Assembly: GCA_030539285.1 (NCBI GenBank)
Contig: JAUNSH010000014.1
Coordinates: 1 to 53,372 of the forward strand
Direction: 5' to 3'
Length of the DNA stretch: 53,372 nt
DNA from: Eubacteriales bacterium
GTDB taxonomy: Bacteria; Bacillota; Clostridia; Oscillospirales; Oscillospiraceae
Shown here: piece after piece, positions 18,719 to 44,766 of the stretch
Layout of the letters: each line of letters opens with the position of its first letter
How positions within the stretch are numbered: position 1 is the first letter of the stretch
Notes under the pieces: generated by a model
What the model was told of the DNA's origin: nothing
The model's input: only the letters and a program-made list of their open reading frames with translations
Database searches by the model: none
Made by a program: the position numbers and the translations under genes

Positions 18719-19471
18719 TTAACCAAGGAACCAGGGAAGGTACGTCTGCACCATCTTATACCACCAGGGCCAGTCGTGGTTCACATCCTTGCCCCAGTAT
18801 TCGAACCGGGTGTGGATGCCCTTCTGGCAGCACACGGTGTCCAGCCACCGGGTGGATTCCAGCAGCGGCTCCTCCCACGCGCCCTGACCGCAGACGATCA
18901 GGCTCTTCTGGCTGTTGTACATATCCTTGTAGAAGTGGCCGTCGGGCAGATTCTGCAGATACAGGCAGGGGCAGTTGTTGTACACCAGATCGTCGCAGTA
19001 ATCGCCGAAGAACTCCTTGTTGTCGTACAGGCCGGAGATGGCGAAGCAACTGTCGAACAGATCGGGGCGGCGGTAGTACAGGTTTGCCGCGTGCATGGCA
19101 CCCATGGAGGCGCCGAAGGTCAGGATACCCTGGTCATAGCCGTTGGCAAGTCCCGCGATGTGCTTGATGGTGGGCACCATTTCGTTGACCACGTAGTTGT
19201 ACCACTTCTCGTGGTTCTCGATGCGCCAGCGGTTGTCCGCGCCCTGAGCGGCCCAGGCCTCGTTGTCGATGGTGTCGATGGCGAAGACCATGCACTTGCC
19301 GGACTCGATCCAGGGGGACCAGTAGTCCACCATGTGGAAGGATTCAAAATCCCAGAACCGTCCCGCTTGGCAGGGGATGAACAGCACAGGCTTGCCGCAG
19401 CTGCCGTAGATCTTGAACTCCATCTCCCGGTTCAGATAGCCGCTCCAATGTTTTTCGTACCGAATTTCCAT
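18719..19471 (-). CDS. Alpha/beta-hydrolase esterase (esterase D-like) 1
   Basis: 250-aa predicted cytoplasmic hydrolase without signal peptide. Nucleophile elbow GASMGAMHAA (G-x-S-x-G, Ser at about 116), and a C-terminal catalytic His candidate in KDVNHDWPWW. Sequence such as FKIYGSCGKPVLFIPCQAG and FAISGLYDNKEFFG places it in the putative-esterase (PF00756-like) group, which includes S-formylglutathione hydrolase and siderophore esterases. AAGGAGA precedes ATG 19471. It is 46 bp upstream of the ATP-grasp gene; that spacer has direct repeats of ATCTTGTATCTA. Probable substrate is the ester product or precursor of the neighbouring ligase (inference). Confidence 0.82.
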   Translation of the reverse strand: MEIRYEKHWSGYLNREMEFKIYGSCGKPVLFIPCQAGRFWDFESFHMVDYWSPWIESGKCMVFAIDTIDNEAWAAQGADNRWRIENHEKWYNYVVNEMVPTIKHIAGLANGYDQGILTFGASMGAMHAANLYYRRPDLFDSCFAISGLYDNKEFFGDYCDDLVYNNCPCLYLQNLPDGHFYKDMYNSQKSLIVCGQGAWEEPLLESTRWLDTVCCQKGIHTRFEYWGKDVNHDWPWWYKMVQTYLPWFLG

Positions 19472-19492
19472 GTTTTCTATCTCTCCTTCAAT

Positions 19493-19530
19493 GTCATCCT
19501 GAGTGAGCGCAGCGAGTCGAAGGATCTTCC
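19493..19530 (-). repeat. R4 end repeat (GATCCTTCGACTCGC family), left end
   Basis: Plus strand begins GTCATCCTGAGTGAGCGC and ends AGTCGAAGGATCTTCC. It matches the complement of 19854-19892 except for a few bases. Confidence 0.85.
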
Positions 19531-19542
19531 CCCCTCCGATAC

Positions 19543-19823
19543 TCAATCCCACTCCTGTGACAAATCGCGCCACTCAGGATTTTCTTTTACAACCAAGGCA
19601 TTCTTTTTGCCCGTGTCCACTTTTTCAGTTGTTTTTCCCGTGAAATCGCGCTGTACACATCGTTGGTGTATTCATAATACACCAGTTTGTGAACATTGTA
19701 TTTCTTTGTAAAACCGTCCGCCAAACCATTGCGGTGTTCATACAGTCGGCGGGGCAGATTGTTCGTCACGCCGATATAAAGAACGGAGTCGTCCCAATTT
19801 GTCAGAAAATAGACGTAATACAT
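19543..19823 (-). pseudogene. GIY-YIG (URI-type) endonuclease, frameshifted near the C-terminus
   Basis: Single-domain GIY-YIG nuclease: MYYVYFLTNWDDSVLYIGVT carries the Y-V-Y...Y-I-G signature, followed by the conserved Arg and Glu in NLPRRLYEHRNG and SAISREKQLKKW. The open frame stops at 19587 after 78 aa (AKRMPWL). If the five-base run at 19604-19608 (A on the coding strand) had six bases, the protein would continue AKKNALVVKENPEWRDLSQE to TGA at 19543-19545, the normal URI-family ending. GGAGGG precedes the ATG. The catalytic part is intact, so activity may survive. It lies inside the inverted-repeat element. Confidence 0.85.
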
Positions 19824-19853
19824 TCTGTCCCTCCGTATACAAATCAGGAAGCC

Positions 19854-19892
19854 GGAAAGATCCTTCGACTCGCTTCGCTCGCTCAGGATGAC
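19854..19892 (+). repeat. R4 end repeat, right end
   Basis: GGAAAGATCCTTCGACTCGC then TTCGCTCGCTCAGGATGACA. ATCCT/AGGAT can close a small stem within each copy. Same orientation as the solo copy at 44728-44766. Confidence 0.85.
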
Positions 19893-19908
19893 AAACGTTG
19901 TACGCTGT

Positions 19909-20664
19909 TTAAAGCCCCAGACAGTCCATAAAAATGGGGATCTGCTGTTCCCAGCTGGCTTCGGAATGGTTGCCGCCGGGGACGATCCGCAGGGCCAGAT
20001 TTACCCGCTTGGTCAGAAGCAGGTGTGCCGTGGAGATCATGGACTCCGGGGTGGCCGCGTGGTTGAACATTTCCAGCTCGCCGTAGTCCATATATATTGT
20101 TGTGTCCCGGCGGATGTGGGCACGGGCCACAAATTCCAGCACCTTGCCGGGAGCCACCCACAGACTGGGGGACAGACAGGCGCCCCGCTGGAAAATGTGG
20201 TTATACACCGTCACGCCGTACAGGGCGATCAGCCCGCCCATGGAGGAACCGGCAATAATGGTGTTCTTCCGATCCGGCAGGGTACGATAGTTCTCGTCTA
20301 TAAAGGGCTTCAATTCCTTGACCATCCAGTTCATCATCACGCTGCCCTTGCCCCGGATGTGGCCGTGCTCGGAATTGGTGTAGGTCATGGGAGCGTACTC
20401 CACAAGCCGGCGGTTGCCCTCGTGGTTACACTCCACGGCGACGATGATCAGTTCCTTGGGGTTTTCCTCCAGAAATTTCGCCATGCCCCAGGACTTTCCA
20501 AAGGTGGCGTCCGAATCAAAGAACACGTTGTGCCCGTCGAACATATACATGACGGGATAGCGCTTGTCCGGATTTTCCTCATAATCCTCCGGCAGCCAGA
20601 TGTAGGCGCGGCGGGGCGTGTCGCTGGACAGCTTCGGAATCGTCACATTCCATTTGTATACCAT
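19909..20664 (-). CDS. Alpha/beta-hydrolase esterase (esterase D-like) 2
   Basis: 251-aa predicted cytoplasmic hydrolase. Features: RRAYIWLPEDYEENPDKRYP then VMYMFDGHNVFFD, nucleophile elbow IIAGSSMGGLIALYG (Ser at about 131), acid region and the His in GGNHSEASWEQQ, in the usual order of the putative-esterase family. It shares fold but little sequence with esterase 1. I chose ATG 20664, preceded by GGAGGG; the frame is open upstream but lacks a good site. First gene of the esterase 2-(element)-esterase 1-ATP-grasp unit, with an excellent promoter 50 bp upstream. Confidence 0.85.
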   Translation of the reverse strand: MVYKWNVTIPKLSSDTPRRAYIWLPEDYEENPDKRYPVMYMFDGHNVFFDSDATFGKSWGMAKFLEENPKELIIVAVECNHEGNRRLVEYAPMTYTNSEHGHIRGKGSVMMNWMVKELKPFIDENYRTLPDRKNTIIAGSSMGGLIALYGVTVYNHIFQRGACLSPSLWVAPGKVLEFVARAHIRRDTTIYMDYGELEMFNHAATPESMISTAHLLLTKRVNLALRIVPGGNHSEASWEQQIPIFMDCLGL

Positions 20665-44713: not shown

Positions 44714-44727
44714 GTTCCGTATTACAA

Positions 44728-44766
44728 GGAAGATCCTTCGACTCGCTCTGCTCGCTCAGGATGACA
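44728..44766 (+). repeat. R4 end repeat, solo copy
   Basis: GGAAGATCCTTCGACTCGCT then CTGCTCGCTCAGGATGACA, nearly identical to the ends of the GIY-YIG element at 19493-19892, here without a nuclease gene. Confidence 0.85.

Follow-up and report, generated by a model that had tools for sequence, protein, structure and literature searches.

Two esterase-family genes in the stretch of DNA analysed here (the window, 53,372 nucleotides from an Oscillospiraceae genome) are separated by a block in which one small gene for a GIY-YIG nuclease lies between inverted repeats. This arrangement raises the question of whether the nuclease is the enzyme that serves these repeats or a gene that came to lie among them by other means. 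With a probability of roughly 0.6, we consider that the block is a gene-bearing REP element, that its nuclease is the dedicated partner enzyme of the repeat family, and that gene-less pairs and single arms are its non-autonomous relatives.

Anatomy of the block and of its repeat family

By using inverted-repeat and pattern searches, we located a left arm at positions 19492 to 19531 on the plus strand (TGTCATCCTGAG...CGAAGGATCTTCCC, with a TGTC tag at the outer end) and its inverted copy on the minus strand at 19854 to 19893. The original prediction of inverted, nearly identical ends around a single small GIY-YIG gene was borne out, as the arms are 40 nt each, 93% complementary and 322 nt apart, and the sole ORF between them (19587 to 19823, minus strand, 78 aa) has a GIY-YIG domain above the cut-off (Pfam PF01541, E 1.8e-18). 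A Shine-Dalgarno-like GGAGG, seen by direct sequence reading, precedes its start at 19830 to 19834 on the same strand. Both neighbours belong to the esterase family (Pfam PF00756) and share one direction, on the minus strand, with E 2.3e-10 for the gene at 18719 to 19471 and E 1.1e-21 for that at 19909 to 20664. Excision had been expected to restore a 37-bp spacer between them; removing 19492 to 19893 does leave a spacer, of about 35 bp. The end repeat had also been placed alone at 44728 to 44766, where repeat and pattern searches find a true single arm of the same family (44727 to 44766, minus strand). When up to three mismatches were allowed, the arm pattern matched three times in the window (the two block arms and 44732 to 44765) and never in 100 dinucleotide shuffles, which excludes chance.

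Each window arm consists of a 5-bp outer stem (TGTC-ATCCT...AGGAT), an interrupted interior and a CTTCC tail. The description of these ends as palindromic holds in part: on its own, an arm forms an imperfect hairpin and folds no better than shuffles, and the strong fold is that of arm against arm (-82.9 kcal/mol for 19470 to 19920, shuffles -44.4). A known RNA element was rejected as the identity of the block, since an Rfam scan of 19300 to 20100 returned none at the gathering score.

In the host genome (G000; 2.78 Mb in 98 contigs, 84% complete), one pattern detects 31 arms, with none for the reversed-pattern control, and another pattern 34. The proposed collection of all its end-repeat copies therefore gave about 31 arms, mostly in two-arm units of about 100 bp. 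Leaving out one contig-end copy and one weak match, we delimited 21 elements outside the nuclease block, of which 19 consist of two arms and a short spacer, 91-157 bp in all, and two of one arm only. Hence, the expected solo, non-autonomous copies are in fact mostly gene-less pairs, that at 44727 to 44766 being truly single. Since the block is built like these gene-less two-arm units, it can be described as a REP dimer with a gene in its spacer. Target-site duplications of 3, 4, 6 or 7 nt were found at none of the 21 elements, and a single 5-nt match consists of an ACGTA palindrome at an arm edge; the elements thus lack the duplication expected of an insertion sequence or MITE and bear no mark of ordinary transposition. 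Just outside the tag, an ACGT or GCGT motif occurs at 9 of 40 element edges (L001-L030) against a background of 4/399. The host genome has three GIY-YIG matches in all, the other two without such arms within their 3.2-kb loci. A RAYT was rejected as the local enzyme, because no Y1 tyrosine transposase (PF01797, E 0.001) was found in this 84% complete draft.

The orthologue of the nuclease in the sister genome G009, in the same element at the same place, is 93 aa long. Compared to it, the window ORF carries a frame change in an A run near residue 74, which removes the conserved C-terminal segment with the invariant N82 or puts it out of frame; judging from the sequence, this could be either decay or an assembly error. 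Y5, Y16, R26, E63 and N82 are invariant across 41 aligned relatives, and we take them to fill the catalytic roles of the Tyr, Tyr, Arg, Glu and C-terminal Asn. In the part of it used here, the GIY-YIG survey names the motif, the Arg and the Glu (PMC1564403). The 93-aa orthologue is predicted to adopt a single-domain GIY-YIG fold (pLDDT 94.9), and a separate DNA-binding domain is absent from the predicted structure. Its best solved structure matches are UPF0213, SLX1, UvrC and I-TevI, the closest being the UPF0213 protein 1zg2 (profile E 8.5e-8). Three further identities were rejected. First, the G009 orthologue had no match in a PADLOC search for defence systems. Second, NCBIfam gave no named family for the window ORF at E 0.001 and only matches far below the cut-offs for three repeat-linked relatives. 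Third, matches to phage genes were weak in PHROGs (best E 1.5e-5), and in 10 phage records the Rhizobium phage proteins, 34-36% identical at E 1e-5, never covered 80%.

Association of the nuclease with tagged hairpins

Among 60 relatives, 36 gave a match and 30 loci were fetched. Allowing one mismatch, the 16 close loci (L034-L049) have TGTCATnnnGAG-type repeats nearby and the 14 distant loci (L050-L063) have no such tag. These distant loci belong to a GIY-YIG class of the same genomes which we take to be YhbQ-like; its members are short too, like the UPF0213 proteins that include the closest solved structure, are 31-41% identical to the window protein and served as controls.

By scanning one genome per species with a query built from repeat-linked proteins, we obtained at least 571 relatives and kept the best 80. 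These come from Clostridia, Proteobacteria, Chloroflexi, Bacteroidota, Ignavibacteria, Patescibacteria, Cyanobacteria, Actinobacteria, Spirochaetes, Elusimicrobiota and others, with at least ten in the window's genus. Under a strict rule (a C/TGTC tag, then ATNNN and its reverse complement within 66 nt, at most 320 nt from the gene), a hairpin lies on both sides of the gene at 45 of these best 80, on one side at 22 and on neither at 12, one locus being not assessable, that is 67 of 79 assessable loci. When the search was displaced 700 nt outwards, the counts fell to 0 (both), 1 (one) and 65 (none), with 14 not assessable, and at 1100 nt to 0, 1 and 63, with 16 not assessable; the distant class gave 0/14. 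Bare tags behaved likewise: C/TGTCAT upstream together with ATGACA/G downstream, each no more than 300 nt away, was found for 55/80 at the gene, for 1/80 and 0/80 when displaced, and for 1/14 in the distant class. Most of the 13 loci listed without a strict hairpin show tag or stem variants by eye. A relaxed rule leaves only seven of the best 80 without a hairpin but fires in the controls too: at 700 nt, hairpins are two-sided at 8 loci, one-sided at 23 and missing at 35, and in the distant class these counts are 2, 2 and 10. By this relaxed rule, the plasmid-collection records L144-L150 are two-sided in 7/7 cases, against both 1, one 5 and none 1 when displaced; by the strict rule, 4/7 are. 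A crude orientation count, not clean, has the nearest tag pointing away from the gene 98 times versus 43. In the genus, 62 of 65 nuclease matches were examined, leaving out the window copy and two contig-end fragments, and arms were found on both sides at 50, on one side at 8 and on neither at 4. The prediction that GIY-YIG genes of this type are flanked by the repeat is therefore supported on at least one side at 67 of the 79 assessable loci and at 58 of the 62 genus loci, and homologues of the clade carry such repeats across phyla instead of lacking them.

The stems of these repeats covary. At 102 loci, we counted 266 outward YGTCAT tags, and for 205 of them the reverse complement of the tag's own five-base stem comes after it (shuffled mean 46, maximum 63), the stems being ATCCT, ATTCT, ATTGC, ATTTC, ATTCC, ATCCC, ATCTC and others. 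Such compensatory change indicates that pairing matters, though single window arms fold weakly. The left and right stems are identical in 33 of 59 two-sided loci (shuffled 10.8, maximum 20).

Nuclease type and stem core are also inherited together. We mapped the stem cores onto a tree of 114 proteins in which few forks are resolved (7 of 111 inner branches starred). For the 97 labelled rows, 30 changes of stem type are needed (shuffled mean 58.6, minimum 53); for TGC versus other cores, with 100 rows, the number is two (shuffled mean 24.5, minimum 19). With five duplicate rows taken out, the changes are again 30 (93 rows; mean 57.1, minimum 50) and 2 (96 rows; mean 22.7, minimum 19). The TGC-flanked proteins are a single clade of 27 and, in addition to it, L087 from the Patescibacteria. 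Four rows with CCT, TCT or TCC arms (L245, L248, L105 and L235) form a group that is the sister of this clade and is not nested in it, and so gives no evidence of a core switch. The link between core and protein is weaker among the non-TGC loci outside the genus search (27 changes, mean 35.5, minimum 30; 59 rows).

Two nuclease types, REKQ-I and REKQ-L, coexist within the genus. Among its 62 loci, REKQ-I goes with TGC arms at 34 and REKQ-L with other cores at 17. The exceptions are Ile with mixed arms (3), Leu with mixed arms (1) and Ile with non-TGC arms (1, CGC); four loci have no core, and the two without the REKQ motif are L286, EKQ-I with CCT arms, and L295, which is interrupted. The best 80 of at least 571 comprise 30 Leu proteins without TGC, 15 Ile proteins without TGC, 8 Ile with TGC, 1 Ile with mixed arms and 26 unassigned, and no TGC-flanked protein among them has Leu at that position. 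Ile is not sufficient for TGC arms, as shown by the other cores at those 15 of 80 loci and by L286. The association between this residue and the core is mostly shared descent, and it fits a possible recognition contact.

Repeat number and occupied sites

Repeat number correlates with the presence of the nuclease. Of 136 genomes of the genus, 56 have the CCT-type repeat and 89 the TGC type, with zero counts for the reversed controls; the nuclease was found in 52, with 1-3 gene-bearing copies each. At least one repeat is present in 51 of the 52 genomes with the nuclease and in 44 of the 84 without it. At least ten REPs are present in 42/52 versus 20/84 (Fisher 5.8e-11, species not being independent and genomes being draft), and the median is 36.5 versus 1 REPs in these draft genomes, with no correction for phylogeny. 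Conversely, 10 of the 84 draft genomes with no detected nuclease have at least 20 REP copies, and the draft genome G074 has the nuclease and neither counted REP type, its arms looking by eye like tag variants.

The chief rival reading starts from the same correlation. A homing-type parasite, copied by repair into cut gene-less dimers while the REPs spread otherwise, would also be more frequent in REP-rich genomes, because these offer more landing sites. Its gene would be enclosed, as here, in a two-arm unit of the same build as the gene-less pairs, and GIY-YIG domains are classic homing nucleases, the catalytic domain of I-TevI being among the fold matches. The homing endonucleases of this class (I-TevI and its free-standing relatives) share with the present enzyme the catalytic fold and residues and the link to mobility; in contrast to them, it is only about 93 aa long, has no DNA-binding tail and is flanked by palindromes, not placed in an intron. 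We find this reading unlikely, since no other REP-moving enzyme was found when a Y1 transposase was sought, the medians of 36.5 and 1 are more simply explained if the nuclease drives the REPs, and the gene-bearing copies are as few as 1-3 per genus genome and encode no separate DNA-binding domain.

Inside the dnaA-dnaN-recF-gyrB-gyrA cluster we counted 22 of 119 nuclease loci. After removal of six presumed duplicates, 18 of 113 remain there, namely L065, L086, L039, L048, L069, L103, L109, L240, L244, L247, L251-L257 and L261; L132, among the six rows dropped, is probably no duplicate, and it was retained when we reran the tree test. These loci occupy four different gaps (dnaA|dnaN, before dnaN, recF|gyrB and gyrB|gyrA), have different cores and are co-directional, and the origin-cluster state changes seven times on the protein tree (shuffled mean 16). 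Candidate reasons for this placement are the high gene dosage near the origin, early replication, or flanks whose conservation favours recombination. A second favoured slot lies between genes that, from the look of their sequences, presumably encode an ABC-F-type ATPase and an argS-like product (L036, L037, L073, L239, L258, L285, L292 and L293).

The presence of 18 of about 113 loci in the origin cluster, together with the branch-cutting SLX1 among the fold matches, would suit a host function, whereby a structure-selective nuclease processes REP cruciforms or replication intermediates and stays next to the sites on which it acts for the sake of regulation, not of mobility. We give this explanation rather little credence, as the gene is patchily present (52/136 genus genomes) at varying sites, some copies are frame-changed or interrupted, and the flanking arms match a genome-wide repeat.

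Using the esterase genes as anchors, we found a match in 51 of 61 genus genomes and read the best 30 of these 51 loci; one lacked a flank and one was the window itself, which left 28 for comparison. The nuclease element is present in G009 and G067 only, a different TGTC-tagged pair in G075, and neither in 25. Hence, the empty sites that were to be looked for in sister species exist at 25 of 28 aligned loci, and the block is far from shared by all relatives, since two of the 28 sister loci carry the nuclease element. In Azospirillum lipoferum 4B, sufB and sufC are separated by the nuclease gene, which has one CGTC REP dimer to its left and another to its right, and A. oryzae, A. ramasamyi and strain B510 are without it at this site. 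Together, presence and absence in the sister species and in Azospirillum indicate that the unit comes and goes. Several nuclease loci share a slot between species, which points to partly vertical inheritance.

We then compared 22 element-by-genome slots, counted by eye after two poor matches, that of L030 in L230 and that of L008 in L187, had been set aside. A TGTC-tagged repeat occupies nine slots in the sister species (one degenerate) and is absent from 13, and four of the nine hold the TGC family where the host genome has CCT. These swaps between species (4/22) are compatible with replacement through repair, or with insertions that recur at favoured sites. No consistent target site was found, the flanks diverging too fast for exact boundaries. 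The empty site of G076 (L155, between the esterase genes) has a bare TGTCAT, the terminal hexamer of the element, and that of G030 has TGCCAT; by eye, the remaining empty sites show no TGTCAT-like seed. In the sister genomes, L225, L216 and L166 have other inverted repeats in the same intergenic slots, some of which begin with GTAGGGC or GTAGGGG and look GTAG-REP-like; no Y1 transposase was found in the draft host genome.

The two-ended inverted-repeat anatomy and the empty sites would also agree with a passenger gene, carried along by an unnamed transposase that moves the REPs. That the same gene family recurs as cargo across phyla, with its type following the stem core, makes this improbable, as do the few fortuitous transposase associations that the part of PMC3733652 used here reports at CGTC REPs. 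Finally, a chance arrangement or assembly artefact, suggested by the draft genome and the frame-changed ORF, is refuted by the same insertion in G009 and the recurrence of the arrangement in independent genomes and complete records, and has practically no probability left.

Known systems and a possible mechanism

REPs have been divided into a GTAG and a CGTC superfamily, the CGTC tag often being TGTC (Di Nocera et al., 2013, PMC3733652, cited here and below from part of the text). According to that study, CGTC repeats occur in five phyla, mostly as dimers, include Neisseria dRS3 and Rickettsia RPE-4/6, and seem to have no dedicated transposase: transposases sought beside them gave only fortuitous associations, and its authors propose either a loss of the enzyme or the service of many transposases. 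The nuclease clade is found in hosts or genera named there, namely Neisseria, S. meliloti, A. lipoferum and Novosphingobium aromaticivorans (PMC3733652). The present repeats share with the CGTC-tagged REPs the outer C/TGTC tag, a stem starting with a paired AT and the dimeric arrangement, and under the strict rule CGTC hairpins flank the nuclease on both sides in A. lipoferum and N. gonorrhoeae and on one side in S. meliloti. They differ in that CGTC REPs have an 8-9 bp stem with a 4-5 nt loop, whereas the window arms fold weakly, and a tail near CCA, whereas the tail is CTTCC in the window. The Azospirillum arms do fit the 8-9 bp stem and 4-5 nt loop (CGTCATCCCCGCGAAGGCGGGGATCCA), and in A. 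lipoferum the tail is CCAG.

RAYT genes are always flanked by two inverted REPs, according to the part of Nunvar (2010, PMC2817692) used here. Likewise, the REP/RAYT systems (REPtron, REPIN) and the present one have an enzyme gene between two inverted REPs and many gene-less REP dimers. They differ in the enzyme, a Y1 HUH tyrosine transposase there and a GIY-YIG nuclease here, and in the tag, GTAG there and TGTC (CGTC in some hosts) here. The comparison with REP/RAYT drawn in the original prediction is thus apt, no Y1 transposase having been found in the draft genome. By this analogy, the block most likely represents a REP-plus-enzyme system in which a hydrolytic nuclease would replace the tyrosine transposase. 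The inverted-repeat-replacing transposition of IS1272 likewise uses palindromic repeats as replaceable targets and makes no target-site duplication; unlike the lone nuclease here, IS1272 is an insertion sequence with a transposase (PMC5678879, in part). A link between GIY-YIG nucleases and REPs is not mentioned in the relevant parts of the GIY-YIG survey (PMC1564403) and the RepRanger paper (PMC12306157). Titles and abstract openings in the full-text literature gave no such link either; bioRxiv and most subscription journals lie outside this coverage, and a prior description is possible.

GIY-YIG enzymes hydrolyse DNA and, to our knowledge, are not known to join it, so copying borne by repair is likelier than true transposition. 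We infer that REPs are cut by the nuclease and copied in the course of repair. In such a scheme, the nuclease would recognise its own REP, extruded as a hairpin or cruciform, via the stem core, and would then cut it. Host recombination or repair would place copies of REPs, and occasionally of the gene, in intergenic slots, either new ones or ones that have a REP already. That this amounts to a bacteria-wide system, whereby a stand-alone nuclease without joining activity reads the stem core of its own REP, cuts, and has host repair copy the repeat, is a more tentative proposal, to which we give somewhat less than even odds.

If true, the missing enzyme of the CGTC/TGTC REP superfamily would be at hand, and repeats would be dispersed without any transposase. 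A single-domain nuclease that is widespread and matches the stem core of its repeats would be a concrete answer to the question of CGTC REP dispersal raised in PMC3733652, as far as the part cited here goes. It would also give a biology to the TGTCAT repeats that abound in gut and environmental genomes, and provide a very small enzyme with possible hairpin specificity.
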